A stretch of 64,000 nucleotides of DNA from Rhizobium sp. LC145 (GTDB lineage Bacteria; Pseudomonadota; Alphaproteobacteria; Rhizobiales; Rhizobiaceae), in contig NZ_LBHV01000004.1 in assembly GCF_001005825.1 (NCBI RefSeq), positions 186,001-250,000 of the forward strand, written 5' to 3'. The notes below the pieces were generated by a model. The model did not search any database. It was not told the origin of the DNA and saw only the letters and a program-made list of their open reading frames with translations. Below, piece by piece: positions 17,230 to 35,136 of the stretch. Each line of letters begins with the position of its first letter. The stretch's first letter is position 1. The position numbers were made by a program, and so were the translations under genes.

Positions 17230-18339
17230 TTATTTCGAACGCGGCTCCTTCAGCCCCGCACCGGCGCCGATCCTGTGCCCGGCATGCTTGGCCAGGACCG
17301 CCTCCAGGAGCGTGCGCGCGGCGTTGCGAACCTCTTCCTGCATTGCCTGGTCGCGGTCGAGCGCCTCGTGGCTGGTGGCATAGGGCTCCCAGTATCCGAT
17401 ATAGCGGTCCAGTTCCGCAAGCGGTCCCGCCGGCATCAGGTGCATGAAACGCAGCCAATCGGAAAGGCTGCGGCGGACATTCTCAGCACCTTCCACGTCG
17501 CCGTGGCTGATGACGGAATAAAGCCGCCCTTCGAGATCCCGCGGATAGTCCCAGCCGCGCATCTCGATTTCCTTGGCTTCCTTGGCGTGCTTGCCATGTG
17601 TGGTGGTGGGATCGGGATTGCCGCCATCGGCGCAGACGAGCCGGTCCATCATCAGCTTCACCGGCGAGGAAACCTGATACCAGTTGACCGGCGTGATGAT
17701 CATGATGCCATGCGCCTCCACCCAGAGCGGATAGATCTCGTTCATCCAGTCGTGAACCTGCCCGAGCGAATAATTCGGATAGCAGGAGCATGGCCAGTGA
17801 CAGAGCGCCGGGGAGGTTGAAAAACAGGCCTTGCAGGGATGGATATGACGTCCGTATTCGGAAGCGAGCCGGCTCAAATCAAGCACTTCCACCGAAACGT
17901 TCTCAGATTGCCTGAAAACTTCCTCCGCCACTTTCACCAGCCGGTAACTCTTCGAAAGTTCGCCGGGACAGGTGTGCTCGCTGCGCGACGAGCCGCTGAC
18001 CAGCAGGAAGCGGCGCGGACCATGAGTATCCTCATGGCGAGCCGCGGCCGCCTGAACGGCATCGCGGGCGTTCAGCCAGTCGACGGCAAGATCGTAATCG
18101 GGATCGGCGAATCCTGGACCGGCCTTGCGCGTCTTCGGGCTCTTGCGGGAATTGTAATAGGCATCCCAGGCGGCATCCGCGATCCGCCCGAGTTCGGCCG
18201 AAAGCGGATCGTAGGCCCTGTCCTGGAACTGGTTGAGAAAGCGGCGCTTGAACTCTGCTTCGTCGAGGCGGGGACTCGGGCTTCCCTTGCGGGGTTCAAG
18301 GTCATGAGCTTGCGGCGTTTCACCTGAATTTGCAGGCAT
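17230..18339 (-). CDS. Flavodoxin-fold NAD(P)H-dependent FMN reductase-like protein
   Basis: This encodes 369 residues. An N-terminal extension of about 110 residues is helical and charged. The flavodoxin-like domain starts near residue 110 with RRFLLVSGSSRSEHTCPGELSKSY (phosphate-binding loop of NADPH-dependent FMN reductases), followed by ITPVNWYQVSSPVKLMMDRL, the typical flavin-contact segment. Several cysteines (HPCKACFSTSP, CHWPCSCYP) between them could bind metal or act in redox chemistry. ATG at 18339 is preferred over TTG at 18357. An EcfG-like promoter lies 40-65 nt upstream, so oxidative or general stress induction is likely. Confidence 0.82.
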   Translation of the reverse strand: MPANSGETPQAHDLEPRKGSPSPRLDEAEFKRRFLNQFQDRAYDPLSAELGRIADAAWDAYYNSRKSPKTRKAGPGFADPDYDLAVDWLNARDAVQAAAARHEDTHGPRRFLLVSGSSRSEHTCPGELSKSYRLVKVAEEVFRQSENVSVEVLDLSRLASEYGRHIHPCKACFSTSPALCHWPCSCYPNYSLGQVHDWMNEIYPLWVEAHGIMIITPVNWYQVSSPVKLMMDRLVCADGGNPDPTTTHGKHAKEAKEIEMRGWDYPRDLEGRLYSVISHGDVEGAENVRRSLSDWLRFMHLMPAGPLAELDRYIGYWEPYATSHEALDRDQAMQEEVRNAARTLLEAVLAKHAGHRIGAGAGLKEPRSK

Positions 18340-18359
18340 GGCAATGTCCCGGAACAAGG

Positions 18360-18392
18360 AAAGGGCGAGCGCCTTCGTAACGCTCGCCCTTT
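18360..18392 (-). terminator. Terminator of the DUF3008 gene
   Basis: AAAGGGCGAGCG (18360-18371) and CGCTCGCCCTTT (18381-18392) form a 12-bp perfect stem with a 9-nt loop, 20 nt beyond the DUF3008 stop. The right arm overlaps the promoter of the next leftward gene. Confidence 0.7.
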
Positions 18393-18404
18393 CGTGAAGG
18401 TTCC
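18379..18404 (-). promoter_or_regulatory. EcfG/RpoE2-type promoter for the flavodoxin-fold gene
   Basis: On the minus strand GGAAC (18404-18400), 17 nt, CGTT (18382-18379) matches the general-stress sigma consensus GGAAC-N16/17-CGTT exactly. The predicted transcript start near 18372 leaves a 5' leader of about 33 nt before the ATG at 18339. Confidence 0.7.
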
Positions 18405-26242: not shown

Positions 26243-26268
26243 GGAACCACAAACCGCCGTGAGCCGTT
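26243..26268 (+). promoter_or_regulatory. EcfG/RpoE2-type promoter for treZY
   Basis: GGAAC (26243-26247), 17 nt, CGTT (26265-26268) is an exact consensus match. The predicted transcript start near 26276 is about 27 nt before the treZ ATG. Trehalose synthesis under the general stress sigma factor is established in rhizobia for other trehalose genes, which supports the call. Confidence 0.75.
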
Positions 26269-26302: not shown

Positions 26303-28114
26303 ATGTCCGCAATGAGCACATTCAGCGAATTCCGGGCCTTTCCGAAGACGTGGGGCTGCGAATTCGTCGCCGCCGGCGAAGCCGCCTTCCGGTTGTGGGC
26401 GCCCGGACAGGCAGCGCTCTACCTGCGCCTCAACGACCGCGAAACGCCGATGACCCGCAGCGATGACGGCTGGTTCGAGCTGCTCGCGGCCGGCATCGAG
26501 CCCGGAACGGAATATGCCTATGTGCTCCCCAGCGGAATGGCGCTTCCCGATCCCGCCTCGCGCGGCCAGAAGGAGAGCGTGACCGGCCCATCCCTGGTGA
26601 TCGACCCCACCTCCTATCAATGGCGGAACCTCGACTGGCAGGGCCGGCGCTGGGAAGAGGCGGTGATCTACGAGCTGCATGTCGGCACCTTTACGCCCGA
26701 AGGTACCTTCCGCGCCGCGATCGAGCGCCTGTCGCACCTCGCCGCACTCGGCATCACAGCCATCGAAGTGATGCCGATCGGCCATTTCGCCGGCGCACGC
26801 GGCTGGGGTTACGACGGCGCGCTCATCTACGCCCCGCATGCCGCCTACGGCGCACCGGAGGATTTCAAGGCTTTCGTCGATGCCGCCCACGGACATGGGC
26901 TGATGGTCCTGGTCGACGTGGTCCACAACCATTTCGGACCGGAAGGGAATTTCCTGCCGCTTCTGGCTCCCGATTTCTTCCATCCCGAAAAGCACACGCC
27001 CTGGGGCGCGGCGATCGCCTACGAGAACGATCCGGTGCGCCGTTTCTTCGTGGAGAACGCTCTCTACTGGCTGGAGGAATTCCACCTCGACGGCCTCCGT
27101 TTCGATGCGATCGACCAGATCGAGGACCCGTCCGAAAAGCACATCATGGTCGAGATCGCCGAGCACATCCGCGCCGAATTCGGCGACCGCCACATCCATC
27201 TGGCCACCGAGGATTCGCGCAACCTCACTTTTCTGCACGAGCGGGATGAGCAAGGGCGCGTGAAGCTCTTCACCGGCGAGTGGAACGACGACTTCCACAA
27301 CGCCATGCATGTGCTCGCGACCGGTGAGACAGACGGCTATTACCGCGATTTTGCCGATAGCCCGGAGAAGCTCGCGGCACGCGCGCTCGCCGAGGGTTTC
27401 GCCTACCAGGGCGAGGTCACGGTGCGGACCGGAAAACCCCGCGGCGTGCCGAGCGCGGCGCAGCCGCCGACCGCTTTCGTGGATTTCATCCAGAACCACG
27501 ACCAGGTCGGCAACCGGGCGCATGGCGAGCGCCTTCTTTCCCTCGCCGGCAAGGACAAGGTGAAGGCGCTGACGGCCGCCCTTCTCCTCTCGCCCCACAT
27601 CCCGCTCATGTTCATGGGTGAGGAATACGGGGAAACGACCCCCTTCCTCTTCTTCACCGATTTCCACGGTGATCTCGCCAAAGCCGTGCGCGAGGGAAGG
27701 CAGAAGGAATTCGAAGGCCATAATGGTCACGGAGAAGAGACCGTTCCGGACCCGAATGCGAAGACGACCTTTCTCGACTCCAGGCTCGATTGGAGCAAGG
27801 CCGAAAATGACGAAGGCCGCGAATGGCTGAAATTCACCCGCGAACTCCTCTCCGCCCGCAGGAGGTTCATCGTGCCGCTCATCGGTTCGGCGGCAGGCAA
27901 TAGCGGCCGCGTTCTCGCCACCTCCAGCCGGTTCATCGCCGTCTCATGGAGCTTCCCGGCGGGCCGCCTGCACATGGCGATAAATCTCGGCGAGGAGGCC
28001 CGCTCAGCGCCTGGCCTCAAGGGACAGCTCGTATGGGGCGAGCCCGTCGATGGCGGCGCGGTGCCGCCGAAGGCGGTGCTCGTCCGCCTCGAAGCGGCCG
28101 GAGGCGGGCCGTGA
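26303..28114 (+). CDS. treZ: Malto-oligosyltrehalose trehalohydrolase
   Basis: This 603-residue GH13 enzyme releases trehalose from maltooligosyl-trehalose made by TreY. An N-terminal beta-sandwich (GCEFVAAGEAAFRLWAPGQ) is followed by the catalytic barrel: ALGITAIEVMPIGHFAG, DVVHNHFGPEGNF, GLRFDAIDQI (nucleophile Asp), ATEDSRN (acid Glu) and FIQNHDQVGNR. The ATG at 26303 is preferred because the preceding frame covers the promoter; the ATG at 26312 is an alternative. Its stop overlaps the treY GTG by 4 nt. Trehalose acts as an osmotic and desiccation protectant. Confidence 0.94.
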   Translation: MSAMSTFSEFRAFPKTWGCEFVAAGEAAFRLWAPGQAALYLRLNDRETPMTRSDDGWFELLAAGIEPGTEYAYVLPSGMALPDPASRGQKESVTGPSLVIDPTSYQWRNLDWQGRRWEEAVIYELHVGTFTPEGTFRAAIERLSHLAALGITAIEVMPIGHFAGARGWGYDGALIYAPHAAYGAPEDFKAFVDAAHGHGLMVLVDVVHNHFGPEGNFLPLLAPDFFHPEKHTPWGAAIAYENDPVRRFFVENALYWLEEFHLDGLRFDAIDQIEDPSEKHIMVEIAEHIRAEFGDRHIHLATEDSRNLTFLHERDEQGRVKLFTGEWNDDFHNAMHVLATGETDGYYRDFADSPEKLAARALAEGFAYQGEVTVRTGKPRGVPSAAQPPTAFVDFIQNHDQVGNRAHGERLLSLAGKDKVKALTAALLLSPHIPLMFMGEEYGETTPFLFFTDFHGDLAKAVREGRQKEFEGHNGHGEETVPDPNAKTTFLDSRLDWSKAENDEGREWLKFTRELLSARRRFIVPLIGSAAGNSGRVLATSSRFIAVSWSFPAGRLHMAINLGEEARSAPGLKGQLVWGEPVDGGAVPPKAVLVRLEAAGGGP

Positions 28115-30642
28115 TCCCGCCGCTCGCCACCTACCGCATCCAGTTCCGTAACGGCATGACCTTCAACCGTGCGGCAGCGCTGGTGCCCTATCTGAAACGC
28201 CTCGGCATCAGCCATCTCTACGCTTCGCCGATCTTCTCGGCCGTCAGCGGCTCGACCCATGGTTATGACGTGACGGATGCGAACGAGATCGACCCCGCGA
28301 TTGGCGGGCGAGAGGGGTTCGATCGGCTTTCGGATGCGCTGAAGACCGCCGGGCTCGGCCTCATCCTCGATATCGTGCCGAACCATATGGCCGCCTCGCT
28401 CGAAAATCCCTGGTGGCGCAGCGTCGTGGAGCTCGGCGAGGCGAGCCCCTATGCCCGCCATTTCGATATCGACTGGAGCCGGCGGCTCACCCTGCCCGTC
28501 CTGGCCGAGACGTTCGAGAAGGTGCTGGAAAGGGGCGATCTCTCGGTTAGGCCCGATCCCAGGACGGGCAAGCCGGCACTTGCCTACCAAGGCACCTGCT
28601 ATCCGCTGACGCCGTCGAGCTATGCGGGACGGGAGGCGGAAGTGCTGGCCACCACCGCGCCCGACGCCATCGCCGGTTTGCACGACCTGCAGCCCTGGCG
28701 CCTCATCCCGTGGCGCGATGCGTCGCGCGAGCTCAGCTATCGTCGCTTTTTCGAAATCACCAGCCTCGTGGGCATGCGGGTCGAGGATGGCCGGGTGTTC
28801 GATGACATGCACCACACCGTGCTGGAACTCGTCCGCACCGGCCGCGTCGATGGACTCAGGATCGATCATGTGGACGGCCTTGCCGATCCCAAGGCCTATC
28901 TCGAACGGCTGCGGCACGAGGTCGGGCCGGATATCTATATCGTGGTCGAAAAGATCCTCGGCGAGGGTGAACATCTGCCCGCCGACTGGCCGGTCTCCGG
29001 CACGACCGGATATGAACTCATCTCCGCCCTTGCCGATGTCTTCGTCGACGGCCGCAAAGCCGGAAAGCTGACGGATGCCTATACCCGCACGTCAGGAAGT
29101 CCCGTTGATGTGGCGGAGGAGCTTCGCCAGGCCAAACTGCTGATGGTCAACAACAATTTCGCTGGGGAGTTTGCCGCCCTGCTGCGCATGGCCGTACAGA
29201 TCCAGCGGGCCGAGGACTGGGAAGCGCCGCTTGTGGAGGATAGTCTGGAAACTGCGCTGCGCGAGCTTCTGGTCGCCTTTCCCGTCTACCGCACCTATGG
29301 CACGAAGGCCGGCCTTTCGCCGGCCGATCGCAAGCTCCTCGCAAAGGTGCTCGACCAGGTGAGGACCCGCTCCATCACCACGTGCCGCAACGCGCTGGCT
29401 TTCCTGGAACGCATCCTGATCGGCGATGTCGAACCTCCGCTTGCCGCAAAGGCGGCCCTCTTCCGTAGCCGCTTTCAGCAATTGACCGGGCCGCTGATGG
29501 CGAAATCGGTGGAAGACACGCTTTTCTTCCGCCATCACCGGCTGCTCGCGCTGAACGAGGTGGGAAACGAGCCGCTTCCCAGATCCTCTAACATCGAGCA
29601 CTTCCACCGCCGCATGGAAACCAGGCGGGGACGCGTGCCGCTTTCGCTTTCGGCAACCTCCACGCATGACACCAAGCGCGGGGAGGATGCCCGTGCGCGG
29701 CTCTATGCCATCAGCGAAGCGCCCGAAGCCTGGGCCGAGGCCGTGGAGCGATGGCGCGGCATGCACCGGCATCTCGTACGGGAGCTGAAGGGCGGCCCCG
29801 CTCCGGAGCCCGAATTGGAATGGATGCTCTATCAGGCGCTTGCCGGCGTCTGGCCGGCGGACCTGTCGGTGGACGAACCCGAGGAATTGGAAGCACTTGA
29901 GGAGCGTTTCCTCGCCTATGTCGAGAAGGCTTTGCGTGAAGGAAAGCTGCGCACGAGCTGGAACGATATCGATCCGGACTATGAGCAGGCGGTGACCGGC
30001 TATGCCCGGGGATTTTTCTCCTCAGAGGCTTTTCTCGCGGATTTCACCGGCACGCTGCAGCCCTTCATCCGGGCCGGTCTGGCGAATGGTCTCAGCCAAG
30101 CCATCCTCAAGCTCACGGCACCCGGCGTGCCCGACATCTACCAGGGAAGCGAAGCGCTGGATTTCAGCCTCGTCGATCCCGATAACCGCCGCGAGCCGGA
30201 TTTCCGGCGTTTGGAAACCTGGCTGACGGCGAACGATGCCCCAAGCTTCACCCAGGAAGACGATTGGCGAAGCGGCAGGCTCAAGCAGCACGTCATCGCA
30301 ACGCTGCTGCACCTCAGACAGGAGAAACCGCAACTCTTCCTGGAGAGAGCCTATCTGCCCCTGCGGCCATCCGGTATGCGGGAGGCGGACATCGTCGCGT
30401 TTGCGAGAGCGGACGAAGCGGACGCGCTGATCGTGATCCTTCCCCACCTGATCTTCGCCGCCTTCCATGACGGTCTGCCGCGACCCGACTATTGGGCGGA
30501 TACGCAGATCACGCTTCCGCCGTCTCTTGCGATCCGATCCTACCGGGAGATATTCACCGGCGAGGAATTTACCGGCTCCGTGCCGATCGTCATCGGCCTT
30601 GCCTTCGGCCAGCACCCTTTCGCCGTCCTCGCCGCACGGTGA
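28111..30642 (+). CDS. treY: Malto-oligosyltrehalose synthase
   Basis: This 843-residue GH13 enzyme turns the reducing end of maltodextrin into a trehalose unit. PPLATYRIQFRNGMTFNRA, LYASPIFSAVSGSTHGYDV, DIVPNHMA, GLRIDHVDGLADP (nucleophile) and VEKILGEGE (acid) are diagnostic. SATSTHDTKRGEDARARL and GVPDIYQGSE complete the barrel. The start is GTG at 28111 inside the treZ stop (GTGA), so the two enzymes are translationally coupled. Open frame before the GTG is out of phase with family homology. Confidence 0.95.
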   Translation: MIPPLATYRIQFRNGMTFNRAAALVPYLKRLGISHLYASPIFSAVSGSTHGYDVTDANEIDPAIGGREGFDRLSDALKTAGLGLILDIVPNHMAASLENPWWRSVVELGEASPYARHFDIDWSRRLTLPVLAETFEKVLERGDLSVRPDPRTGKPALAYQGTCYPLTPSSYAGREAEVLATTAPDAIAGLHDLQPWRLIPWRDASRELSYRRFFEITSLVGMRVEDGRVFDDMHHTVLELVRTGRVDGLRIDHVDGLADPKAYLERLRHEVGPDIYIVVEKILGEGEHLPADWPVSGTTGYELISALADVFVDGRKAGKLTDAYTRTSGSPVDVAEELRQAKLLMVNNNFAGEFAALLRMAVQIQRAEDWEAPLVEDSLETALRELLVAFPVYRTYGTKAGLSPADRKLLAKVLDQVRTRSITTCRNALAFLERILIGDVEPPLAAKAALFRSRFQQLTGPLMAKSVEDTLFFRHHRLLALNEVGNEPLPRSSNIEHFHRRMETRRGRVPLSLSATSTHDTKRGEDARARLYAISEAPEAWAEAVERWRGMHRHLVRELKGGPAPEPELEWMLYQALAGVWPADLSVDEPEELEALEERFLAYVEKALREGKLRTSWNDIDPDYEQAVTGYARGFFSSEAFLADFTGTLQPFIRAGLANGLSQAILKLTAPGVPDIYQGSEALDFSLVDPDNRREPDFRRLETWLTANDAPSFTQEDDWRSGRLKQHVIATLLHLRQEKPQLFLERAYLPLRPSGMREADIVAFARADEADALIVILPHLIFAAFHDGLPRPDYWADTQITLPPSLAIRSYREIFTGEEFTGSVPIVIGLAFGQHPFAVLAAR

Positions 30643-30654
30643 ACTTAAAAATGA

Positions 30655-30688
30655 AAGAGGCGCCGATCGAGGGAACCCGGCGCCTCTT
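30655..30688. terminator. Bidirectional terminator between treY and the small peptide genes
   Basis: AAGAGGCGCCG (30655-30665) and CGGCGCCTCTT (30678-30688) form an 11-bp stem with a 12-nt loop. A U-rich tract follows leftward (TTTCATTTTTAAG) and a weaker one rightward (ATTCC). The convergent treY and peptide genes share it. Confidence 0.75.
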
Positions 30689-30712: not shown

Positions 30713-30787
30713 TCAGCCGAAGCCCAGCAACGACAGAACTGCAAGAACGATGACCACGGCTCCGACGAGCCAGATGATGCTGTTCAT
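30713..30787 (-). CDS. 24-residue membrane peptide, copy 1
   Basis: This is a 25-codon gene (including the stop) whose product starts MNSIIWLVGAVVIVLAVLSL and ends in a Leu-Gly-Phe-Gly tail. It is one hydrophobic helix. AAAGGAGG is 6 nt upstream of the ATG, an almost ideal ribosome site. It is 63 bp downstream of a paralog that shares M-N-S-I, W-L-V-G-A and V-I-V plus the Gly-Phe ending. The codons use synonymous changes relative to the paralog, as expected for selected protein sequence. No function known; it probably inserts in the inner membrane. Confidence 0.75.
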   Translation of the reverse strand: MNSIIWLVGAVVIVLAVLSLLGFG

Positions 30788-30850
30788 GGCTGCCTCCTTT
30801 CTATCCAAGAGGTTCGTGGGCGACGGACCCGGCACCTCCGGCATTCGGCC

Positions 30851-30925
30851 TCACGCGAAGCCGACCAGGTTCAGGATCGCAATGACGATGACGATCGCGC
30901 CAACCAACCAGACGATGCTGTTCAT
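30851..30925 (-). CDS. 24-residue membrane peptide, copy 2
   Basis: This is the first of the tandem pair. The product starts MNSIVWLVGAIVIVIAILNL and ends with Val-Gly-Phe-Ala. AAGGAGAG lies about 7 nt before the ATG. A consensus EcfG promoter is 30-54 nt upstream, so both peptides are likely made in the general stress response. A single hydrophobic helix with an N-terminal polar MNS cap suggests a bitopic inner-membrane peptide that may modulate a larger membrane protein. The divergent neighbour ndh, itself membrane bound, is a candidate partner by position only. Confidence 0.78.
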   Translation of the reverse strand: MNSIVWLVGAIVIVIAILNLVGFA

Positions 30926-30954
30926 GACTTCTCTCCTTGTCTGTTGTGGGAATG

Positions 30955-30979
30955 AACGGCGGGGTCAACGAAAGGTTCC
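30955..30979 (-). promoter_or_regulatory. EcfG/RpoE2-type promoter for the tandem membrane peptides
   Basis: On the minus strand GGAAC (30979-30975), 16 nt, CGTT (30958-30955), an exact consensus match. The predicted start near 30948 gives a leader of about 22 nt ending in the AAGGAGAG ribosome site of the first peptide. Confidence 0.75.
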
Positions 30980-31062: not shown

Positions 31063-32400
31063 ATGACTGGCGAGATCACGACCATCGAGACACTCGATCA
31101 ACCGGACGAAAAGACCGGCGCTCCGCGCGTGGTGATCGTCGGGGCCGGCTTCGGCGGGCTCGCTGCGGCGCGCGAGCTCGGCAATACCGATATCGACGTC
31201 ACGGTCATCGACCGTCGCAACCACAATCTCTTTCAGCCGCTGCTCTATCAGGTGGCGACCGCCGCCCTTTCACCGGCCGATATTGCCGAGCCGATTCGGC
31301 GAACGCTGGGCCGCTTTCACAATATCAAGGTCATGCTGGCCGAGGTGACGGGCATAGATACCGCCGCCAAGACGGTCCATCTCGATTACGGCGCCGACGT
31401 CGCCTATGACCGGCTGGTCGTCGCCACCGGCTCGGAATACAACTATTTCGGCCATGAGGATTGGCGCGCCGCGGCACCAGGGCTGAAGACCATTCACGAG
31501 GCGCGGCTGATCCGGCAGCGTTTGCTTCTCGCTTTCGAAAAGGCCGAACTCAGCCAGGATCCGGAGGAGAAGAAGGCCCTTCTGACCAGCATCATCATCG
31601 GCGGCGGCCCGACCGGGGTCGAGATGGCGGGCGCCATTGCCGAACTCGGCCGCTTCATGATCAGCCGGGATTTCCGCAAGCTGGAGCCGGACCATATGCG
31701 GGTCATCCTGATCGAGGCTGGGCCGCGCATCCTTTCCGCCTTTCCCGAGAGCCTGGTGGCCTATGCTCAGCGTGCGTTGGAAAAGATGGGCGTGGAGGTA
31801 ATGACCAATCTTCCGGTCGAATCCGTCAGCAAGGATGAGGTGGTGGCCGGCCCGCATCGCTTCCGTACCGGCTGCGTCATCTGGGGCGCGGGGGTGAAGG
31901 CCTCGCCGGCGGCGGGCTGGCTCGGCATAGAGGGCAAGGCTGGCGGGCGCATTCCCGTCGAGCCCGATCTTTCCATTGCCGGTCACCCGGATATCTATGC
32001 GATAGGCGATACCGCCCTCGGGCTGAGCGACGACGGCAAGCCCCTGCCGGCGCTCGCCCAGGTCGCCAAGCAGCAGGGCGGCTATATCGGCAAGGCGCTG
32101 CGGCGCAAGCTCCTGGACGGAAAGGACAGCCCACCCTTCCGTTTCAACAATCGCGGCAATACGGCCGTCGTCGGCCATAAGGCGGCGATCTTCGACTTCG
32201 GAACCTGGCGGCTCAAGGGAAGGATCGCCTGGTACCTGTGGGCACTCGTCCACGTCTATCTGCTGGTCAATTTCGAAAAACGCCTGCTCGTCAGCACTCA
32301 ATGGGCCTGGCGCTATGTCAGCCGCCAGCGCGGCGCCCGGCTGATCGACGAGAACGCCGCATCCTTCGTGCCGTCTTCCACACAAAGGACCGAGACATGA
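31063..32400 (+). CDS. ndh: Type II NADH dehydrogenase
   Basis: This 445-residue membrane-associated flavoprotein oxidises NADH and reduces quinone without pumping protons. VVIVGAGFGGLAAAREL binds FAD, HNLFQPLLYQVATAALSP is the NDH-2 signature near the quinone site, SIIIGGGPTGVEMAGAIAEL binds NADH, and IYAIGDTA is the second FAD contact. A C-terminal hydrophobic segment (IAWYLWALVHVYLLVNF, about residues 390-406) anchors it. GGGGACAGG precedes the ATG. It overlaps the next gene by 4 nt. A stress-type promoter suggests a role when complex I is limiting. Confidence 0.93.
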   Translation: MTGEITTIETLDQPDEKTGAPRVVIVGAGFGGLAAARELGNTDIDVTVIDRRNHNLFQPLLYQVATAALSPADIAEPIRRTLGRFHNIKVMLAEVTGIDTAAKTVHLDYGADVAYDRLVVATGSEYNYFGHEDWRAAAPGLKTIHEARLIRQRLLLAFEKAELSQDPEEKKALLTSIIIGGGPTGVEMAGAIAELGRFMISRDFRKLEPDHMRVILIEAGPRILSAFPESLVAYAQRALEKMGVEVMTNLPVESVSKDEVVAGPHRFRTGCVIWGAGVKASPAAGWLGIEGKAGGRIPVEPDLSIAGHPDIYAIGDTALGLSDDGKPLPALAQVAKQQGGYIGKALRRKLLDGKDSPPFRFNNRGNTAVVGHKAAIFDFGTWRLKGRIAWYLWALVHVYLLVNFEKRLLVSTQWAWRYVSRQRGARLIDENAASFVPSSTQRTET

Positions 32401-34235: not shown

Positions 34236-34260
34236 GGAACCATTTTAACCGCCCTCCGTT
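34236..34260 (+). promoter_or_regulatory. EcfG/RpoE2-type promoter for the 34.3-kb dehydrogenase
   Basis: GGAAC (34236-34240), 16 nt, CGTT (34257-34260), an exact consensus match. The predicted start near 34268 leaves a leader of about 74 nt containing GGGGAGGAG just before the ATG at 34342. Confidence 0.72.
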
Positions 34261-34341
34261 CAAACCTTGTACATCGCTTGAGAAAATCCCGGCAAAGGGA
34301 GATCGAGGCGAAAGCGCCGACCCGGCATGGGGAGGAGTGAA

Positions 34342-35136
34342 ATGAACGCAATCCGCGAACTCGCCGTCGTGACAGGCGCCTCCTCCGGCATCGGCTTCGA
34401 ACTGGCGAAGCTTTGCGCCACCGAGGGCTATGACATCATCGCGGTGGCCGACGAGCCGGAAATCCACGACGCCGCCGAAAAGCTCGCGAACGAGGGCACA
34501 CGCATCACCGCCGTCGAGGCCGATCTTGCCCAAAAATCCGGTGTCGATAAGCTGATGGCTGCGATAGACGCGGATGGCCGCCCCGTCGAGCTGCTGCTTG
34601 CCAATGCCGAGCGTGGTCTGCGCGAAGGCTTTCTCGACCGTGACTTCAAGGAGATCGAGCACGCCCTCCATACCAATATCACCGGCACGCTCGACGTGCT
34701 TCACAGGATCGGCATGCAGATGCGCGAGCGGCGGCGCGGCCGCATTCTCATCACCGGCTCGATCGCCGGCTTCGTCCCCGGCAGCTTTCAGGCGGTCTAC
34801 AACGCCTCCAAGGCCTTCCTGAACAACTTCTCCTTCGCGCTTCGTAACGAGCTGAAGGACAGCGACGTGACGGTCACTTGCCTGATACCCGGTCCGACCG
34901 ACACCGAATTCTTCGAACGCGCCGATATCGCCGACATGCCGCTCGGTGAGATGAAGAAGGGCGACCCGGCTTTCGTTGCCCGCATTGGCTTCGAGGCCAT
35001 GATGGAGGGAGAAGGCGATGTCGTGAGCGGCTGGAAGAACAAGCTTCAAGCGGCCATCGCCAATGTCACGCCCTCCGAGATGCTGGCCGAGCAGCACCGC
35101 GAGTTGGCCGAGCCGGGCGGCGGAAAACCAACCTGA
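34342..35136 (+). CDS. Short-chain dehydrogenase/reductase
   Basis: This encodes 264 residues of the classical SDR fold: AVVTGASSGIGFELAK (cofactor loop), LLANAERG in place of the usual NNAG, ITGSIAGFVPGSF (catalytic Ser) and YNASKAFLNNF (Tyr-x3-Lys). PGPTDTEFFERADI follows. The replacement of NNAG by NAE is unusual but occurs in some SDRs. The ATG at 34342 is chosen because GGGGAGGAG precedes it by 5 nt; the ATG at 34327 overlaps that site. Substrate unknown. Confidence 0.9.
   Translation: MNAIRELAVVTGASSGIGFELAKLCATEGYDIIAVADEPEIHDAAEKLANEGTRITAVEADLAQKSGVDKLMAAIDADGRPVELLLANAERGLREGFLDRDFKEIEHALHTNITGTLDVLHRIGMQMRERRRGRILITGSIAGFVPGSFQAVYNASKAFLNNFSFALRNELKDSDVTVTCLIPGPTDTEFFERADIADMPLGEMKKGDPAFVARIGFEAMMEGEGDVVSGWKNKLQAAIANVTPSEMLAEQHRELAEPGGGKPT

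Follow-up and report, generated by a model that had tools for sequence, protein, structure and literature searches.

Very small membrane proteins with a single span have been described in several bacteria. E. coli YohP, 27 residues long, dimerises through one glycine in the middle of its helix, which is flanked by two lysines (PMC7549839); its production lowers both membrane potential and fluidity, and its loss lowers the survival of E. coli under stress (PMC12719787). MgtS and AcrZ (PMC12719787), as CydX (PMC10117765), are single-span small proteins too, and proteins of this type often act on partners (PMC12719787). The type I toxins IbsC, ShoB, TisB and ZorO are small hydrophobic single helices; ZorO is tandemly duplicated, and searches for such toxins have used the occurrence of small hydrophobic proteins in tandem as a criterion (PMC8309996). 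In S. meliloti 2011, SEP6, a peptide of less than 30 residues with a predicted transmembrane helix conserved in Hyphomicrobiales, is supported by both Ribo-seq and Western blot, the Western signal being strong and predominantly found in the P100 (membrane/ribosome pellet) fraction (PMC10117765). As to regulation, canonical EcfG promoters are described as carrying AAC/CGTT (PMC8103513), a signature also present at several RpoE2-responsive S. meliloti genes (PMC6180224).

Two genes for peptides of comparable size lie side by side in the window, the whole stretch of 64,000 nt of Rhizobium sp. LC145 DNA analyzed here. By ORF reading, the first gene of the pair, P1 (30851..30925, minus strand), and the second, P2 (30713..30787, minus strand), each encode a 24-residue putative single-span membrane peptide, MNSIVWLVGAIVIVIAILNLVGFA of the N19 type and MNSIIWLVGAVVIVLAVLSLLGFG of the S19 type, respectively. 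P1 and P2 are the only two copies found in this genome, and sit between a treY-like gene (27946-30642, plus strand) and an ndh-like gene (31063-32400, plus strand). The former, identified by ORF reading and synteny, is the usual neighbour in loci of the genus, and we take it to encode a malto-oligosyltrehalose synthase. The latter, not constant as a neighbour, was read by us, as in the original prediction, as a type II NADH dehydrogenase (NDH-2). The pair had been described as facing ndh; P1 is instead divergent from ndh, and it is treY, convergent and tail-to-tail with the pair, that faces P2. Among the ORFs of the window, no further gene is found on the same strand between P2 and treY. The interval first proposed for the locus, 30713-30979, includes both genes and the promoter motif but leaves out the terminator.

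Coding character of the P1-P2 pair

That the two tiny paralogous genes are real, and kept by selection on the protein, is almost certain. Relatives of P1 were detected at E <= 1 in 35/35 sampled genomes of the same genus, and in 3/24 genomes of other families. In two-copy loci (44 distinct sequences for each gene, the five tandem pairs with no treY link, L054, L064, L065, L171 and L172, being included), synonymous differences are far above replacements, pN/pS being 0.18 for P1 and 0.20 for P2, and 0.28 between the paralogues of one genome. Variability at the three codon positions is 0.102, 0.020 and 0.349 in P1, 0.116, 0.031 and 0.296 in P2. Divergence at synonymous sites is high (pS 0.50-0.56), and spacers of 32-100 nt separate the two copies.

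The length of the peptides is nearly invariant. The best peptide of each locus, read to the first stop with no length filter, has 24 residues in 222/225 loci, 25 in two, 22 in one. Among the 294 members selected by length (20-28 residues), start codon (ATG, GTG or TTG) and score, 291 are 24 residues long; of all 294, 282 start with ATG and 12 with GTG. G9 and G22 are invariant in the 143 distinct 24-residue peptides, V12 is found in 99% and L18 in 98%, figures which lean to the family because the loci come from searches with family members, a bias that does not extend to the promoter statistics given below. Acidic residues are missing in 141/143 distinct peptides; 132/143 carry at most one basic residue, as a rule a C-terminal R, and R is the last residue in 77/143. 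Hydrophobicity is high (GRAVY mean 2.19; best 19-residue Kyte-Doolittle mean 2.86, minimum 2.38), and the peptides, well within 50 residues, consist, as judged by hydropathy, of one hydrophobic helix with little outside. What is kept is a predicted single 24-residue hydrophobic helix of fixed length.

In the 44 distinct tandem loci, P1 carries N19 in 38 and L20 in 41, P2 S19 in 44 and F20 in 40; judged by these residues, the two forms are kept apart, not homogenised. Two main sequence types are also seen in the family, a Y6/L10 branch (MNQIIYLVGLVV..., L129-L147) and a W6/A10 branch (MNSIVWLVGAVV..., L040-L050), and some loci of each branch carry the same promoter motif.

Ribosome-site words precede both genes, AAGGAGAG upstream of the P1 ATG (30931..30938, minus strand) and AAAGGAGG upstream of P2 (30793..30800, minus strand), each read from the sequence. 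Family-wide, a four-base ribosome-site word was found before 180/189 genes, as compared with 15% of 1620 random control points in the same loci. The sites had been called strong, which is true of the words, but not of the accessibility of the P2 site, whose unpaired probability in the fold of a 57-nt stretch of the window is 0.04 (0.33 for the P1 site), a pairing absent in most relatives. Between 30770 and 30812 (minus strand) the P2 site can pair with an upstream CCTCTT; this pairing is not better than in shuffled sequences (68/200), and is not general among relatives. Mean unpaired probabilities are 0.50 for P1 sites (n=43) and 0.41 for P2 sites (n=44), near the 0.46-0.47 of controls, and values below 0.3 were found at 9/43 and 10/44 sites, respectively. 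Accessibility of the ribosome sites is no distinctive feature of these genes.

These folds bear on the possibility that P1 and P2 are small hydrophobic tandem toxins of type I, silenced by an antisense RNA. Structures hiding the ribosome site are typical of type I toxins. Size, hydrophobicity and tandem duplication of the peptides would fit this class and the search criterion mentioned above, as would the predicted pairing of the P2 site in the window with an upstream stretch. Nevertheless, no conserved structure hiding the ribosome site emerged over the 43 P1 and 44 P2 sites. The high pS, together with the 32-100 nt spacers, leaves no conserved RNA apparent. No antisense RNA signal came from the Rfam search or the promoter scan: the locus has no Rfam match, and E. 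coli-type promoters were found on neither strand between 30000 and 31800, in a scan which rhizobial promoters may escape. The pair is moreover preceded by a promoter motif of the EcfG type, a further difference from type I toxins. On this balance a toxin-antitoxin system is improbable.

An intrinsic terminator, recognized by folding, follows the pair as originally predicted (30647..30688, minus strand), with a 12-bp G+C-rich stem and a U-rich tail, the stem being followed by UUUCAUUUUU. The inverted repeat is also found directly after the convergent treY. Shuffled sequences folded at least as well in 3/200 cases on the minus strand and 0/200 on the plus strand. A pattern scan of the locus for sigma-70 promoters and terminators listed nothing, the terminator included, probably because its loop of 10 exceeds the limit of 8 set in the scan. 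The short predicted transcript and its terminator might recall a regulatory small RNA or a leader peptide, in which the ORFs would be incidental, and 23 S. meliloti small RNAs have been predicted to have RpoE2-type promoters (PMC3616915). This view is already contradicted by the codon pattern (pN/pS 0.18-0.20). The frequency of ribosome-site words and the constancy of the 24-residue length also speak against it, as does the finding that no same-strand gene lies downstream before the convergent treY, and it may be regarded as very improbable.

The EcfG-type promoter motif

The exact GGAAC-N16-CGTT sequence announced in the original prediction as a stress-type promoter is found at 30955..30979 (minus strand), 29 nt separating it from the P1 ATG. 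The window hosts seven GGAAC-N15-18-CGTT matches, against 1.97 expected, a number reached in 0/100 shuffles. The survey of the family started from 225 loci, some of which come twice from one genome; four had no member under the filter, and the remaining 221 upstream regions were thinned to 162 by 8-mer overlap. GGAAC-N15-18-CGTT with its start between positions -120 and -40 of the first gene was found in 69 of the 162 non-redundant upstream regions, against a shuffle mean of 0.47 (maximum 5, 200 rounds), the commonest start being at -54 relative to the first peptide gene. The same motif was seen in 31/6564 control segments of the same loci, and in 4/162 regions on the reverse strand. By context, the exact motif precedes the peptide genes in 31/31 treY-linked loci of the thinned set and in 38/131 others; before thinning, it precedes the first peptide gene in 47/47 distinct treY-linked loci, de-duplicated for exact identity only. 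It is very likely that the P1-P2 pair is under EcfG control.

The peptide gene is in single copy in 8 of the 47 treY-linked loci. A second motif was found in the spacer between copies in 0/39 two-copy treY-linked loci; these spacers are short, and a promoter located inside P1 would escape the search. Given a motif before the first gene in all treY-linked loci, and none between copies, the pair would most simply be read as one transcript.

The exact motif is missing in 93/162 non-redundant upstream regions. By a relaxed motif model, 25 of the 93 score above the 98% control level, and the other 68 fail. Outside Alphaproteobacteria, the exact EcfG motif was found in none of the 13 loci read (L070, L088, L098, L205, L206, L214-L216, L219, L222-L224 and L231), made up of nine loci from 15 peptide-positive genomes, three from Methyloversatilis, and one from Burkholderia. 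Of 21 loci devoid of the exact motif, none showed a 7-base RpoS-type -10 pattern in the upstream 120 nt. Four of the loci outside the class (L205, L206, L219, L223) feature a common block, ACAGG..GTTAC or ACAGG..GTTGC, some 65-105 nt ahead of the peptide gene. The block is distinct from the EcfG motif, and is perhaps the site of another regulator.

NepR is part of the EcfG switch. Rhizobium sp. LC145 encodes NepR (PF18557, E 1.1e-14). Among 45 hand-chosen peptide-positive genomes, comprising all 15 from outside the class and 30 from within, NepR was found in 26/30 Alphaproteobacteria, and in 0/15 genomes outside. Taken with the motif counts, this points to a family which occurs also without EcfG, and which within Alphaproteobacteria has been placed repeatedly under an EcfG-type motif. 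Members outside Alphaproteobacteria must have other regulation.

Neighbouring genes and spread of the family

An ndh gene was found in the flanks of 26 of the 47 distinct treY-linked loci, and never where treY is lacking, flanks being 1.5-2.5 kb long, some possibly cut by contig ends, so that a more distant ndh is possible. The special tie to NDH-2 read in the original prediction does not survive this count. Divergent adjacency in the window, and the 26 loci just mentioned, are what would recommend the peptides as accessory subunits of the adjacent enzyme; ndh is however not in the flank of 21/47 treY-linked loci, nor of any other, and a role of this type is most unlikely. In loci other than treY-linked ones no neighbour recurs, no Pfam family being found in more than 3/131 upstream or 2/130 downstream positions (neighbours were taken as the nearest long ORFs, some of which are spurious). 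The gene is mostly free-standing, and with no recurring neighbour this argues for action in trans.

Other exact motifs were noticed in the window. GGAAC-N16-CGTT at 34236-34260 (plus strand) lies upstream of the ORF 34327-35136, which we take to be short-chain dehydrogenase-like. Within 18360-18404 (minus strand), GGAAC-N17-CGTT has its -10 part within an inverted repeat (AAGGGCGAGCG...CGCTCGCCCTT) located directly before the ORF 17230-18357, presumably FMN-reductase-like; the repeat could be an attenuator, or a terminator over the promoter. GGAAC-N17-CGTT at 26243-26268 (plus strand) lies a short way upstream of the ATG codons at which a treZ-like ORF probably starts (the ORF call begins at a TTG, 26156), which suggests that the stress sigma factor also controls the treZ-treY genes. 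With motifs at the peptides, at treZ, at 34236 and at 18379, the region resembles a stress island, and the link of peptide genes to treY may be meaningful. In Sphingomonas melonis, EcfG-dependent trehalose genes include the one for malto-oligosyltrehalose synthase (PMC6599016).

Relatives had been expected in Rhizobiaceae; they are present there, but are not confined to this family, being found also in some other Pseudomonadota. Within Rhizobiaceae, 133/199 genomes match at the loose threshold of E <= 1, a count whose weak tail consists partly of chance matches inside longer ORFs. A wider profile (E <= 0.001) detected the peptides in 60/249 genomes of the order, 30/385 of the class, and 46/398 of the phylum. 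In a scan of named genomes 224 relatives turned up, and the best 80 include sequences from Rhizobium, Neorhizobium, Mesorhizobium, Roseomonas-type Acetobacteraceae, Yoonia and Methyloversatilis. Extra copies reside elsewhere in some genomes of the genus. The distribution is patchy across the class Alphaproteobacteria, and includes some other Pseudomonadota.

Taken alone, the peptides of the window reach no better than E 0.2 in Pfam and match nothing in NCBIfam. When 25 peptides were searched, the best values, E 0.008 in Pfam (four members) and 0.01 in NCBIfam (11 members, MPN207a family), were not significant; the best PHROGs value was E 0.013 (two members), and no PDB chain was matched up to E 10. 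In the literature on EcfG, RpoE2 and small membrane proteins, titles and abstract openings hold no description of the family, and six family peptide strings had no occurrence in the literature searched. P1 and P2 are read here as members of a new family of a known kind, putatively stress-induced single-span membrane peptides, the novelty being claimed for the family, and not for every member.

The genes had been predicted to be overlooked by annotation, and plasmid members, located by blastn of gene plus promoter, bear this out. S. meliloti Ak57 (CP090106) carries a 24-residue member, MNQIIYLVGLVVIVIAILSFFGLS, with GGAAC-N16-CGTT starting 50 nt upstream; at this locus no gene is listed in the PLSDB table, a table which is incomplete. 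On a plasmid of Rhizobium etli 8C-3 (L232:2464-2640) the annotation instead places a hypothetical protein antisense over the member, which is itself unlisted. The latter has D9 in place of G9 and no exact motif, and is outside the counted set. A further 16 members (L233-L248) were seen in IMG/VR viral contigs, ten having the identical sequence MNSIIYLVGLVVIVLFILSFLGLR, with no exact EcfG motif within 150 nt of any of the 16. Such contigs can carry host flanks, and these members are either genuine phage cargo or lie in host DNA flanking prophages.

One member may already be published, as SEP6 of S. meliloti 2011. Compared by description only, SEP6 and the family agree in size (below 30 residues), predicted helix and occurrence in Hyphomicrobiales; unlike what is seen in the family, the available part of the SEP6 account mentions neither EcfG control nor tandem pairs (PMC10117765).

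Candidate mode of action in the membrane

We propose that P1 and P2 form a two-gene general-stress transcript, the helices encoded by which change the state of the membrane, acting in trans. We give this reading a probability of about one half. Under stress, the EcfG-type sigma factor would read the GGAAC-N16-CGTT promoter, and an mRNA with a short leader would direct the synthesis of two 24-residue peptides, each predicted to insert into the inner membrane as a single hydrophobic helix. Working in trans, the helices would probably pack through the conserved glycines into homo- or hetero-oligomers, and would lower membrane potential or alter fluidity, making the cell more tolerant, alongside the trehalose produced by the neighbouring treZ-treY genes. 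The idea of oligomers draws no support from the conservation test, a conserved helical face sought among the distinct peptides being not significant (p = 0.23).

The closest model is YohP, a membrane protein of stress and stationary phase. YohP and, by prediction, the family peptides are single hydrophobic helices with little outside the membrane; both are linked to stress, the family through its promoter motif, and both have a glycine in the middle of the helix (PMC7549839, PMC12719787). They differ in their charges, since two lysines flank the YohP helix (PMC7549839) and most family peptides have one basic residue or none, and in promoter class, the family being associated, in Alphaproteobacteria, with an EcfG-type motif, unlike YohP. 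No sequence relationship was found, which counts against the model: BLASTP gave no match, and profile comparison aligned eight columns with a probability of 28% and a nominal E of 6e-4 in a single comparison, the YohP query agreeing in length and glycine positions with the published description (PMC7549839). The family probably acts freely in the membrane as YohP does, with no shared ancestry implied, and the membrane effect assigned to it is borrowed from this single E. coli case, which rests on premature production of the protein.

Like AcrZ, MgtS and CydX, the peptides might otherwise be devoted to a single conserved membrane protein whose gene lies elsewhere, which they would stabilise or modulate under stress. 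The strong constraint on the helix, with G9 and G22 invariant and V12 and L18 nearly so, would suit a specific helix-helix contact, and action on partners is frequent among single-span small proteins (PMC12719787). The family differs from the MgtS/AcrZ/CydX class as no conserved neighbour or partner was found: no gene recurs next to the loci devoid of treY, and ndh accompanies only 26/47 treY-linked loci. The patchy presence in order and class at E <= 0.001 argues in turn against a universal core partner. Binding to a single partner is possible, at odds well short of even. The membrane-wide mechanism, judged about as probable as its contrary, is modestly favoured over it because no partner is linked to the genes, and because of their patchy presence. 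A bolder version of the membrane-wide mechanism appears doubtful: a phylum-wide family would have been captured, in Alphaproteobacteria, by the EcfG regulon and become one of its main small effectors, the co-transcribed N19 and S19 forms of Rhizobium-type genomes setting membrane leak or fluidity under stress as a hetero-oligomer.

When rpoE2 was overproduced in S. meliloti, 150 of the 202 genes with raised expression had no predicted function in one study (PMC3616915). The family adds to such responses tiny candidate stress effectors that gene tables can miss, present in all 35 genomes sampled from one genus and in many more. A promoter test is at hand, and one member belongs to S. meliloti, a laboratory model. 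Should the YohP-like reading be true, stress control by a membrane peptide of one helix would gain an independent example.
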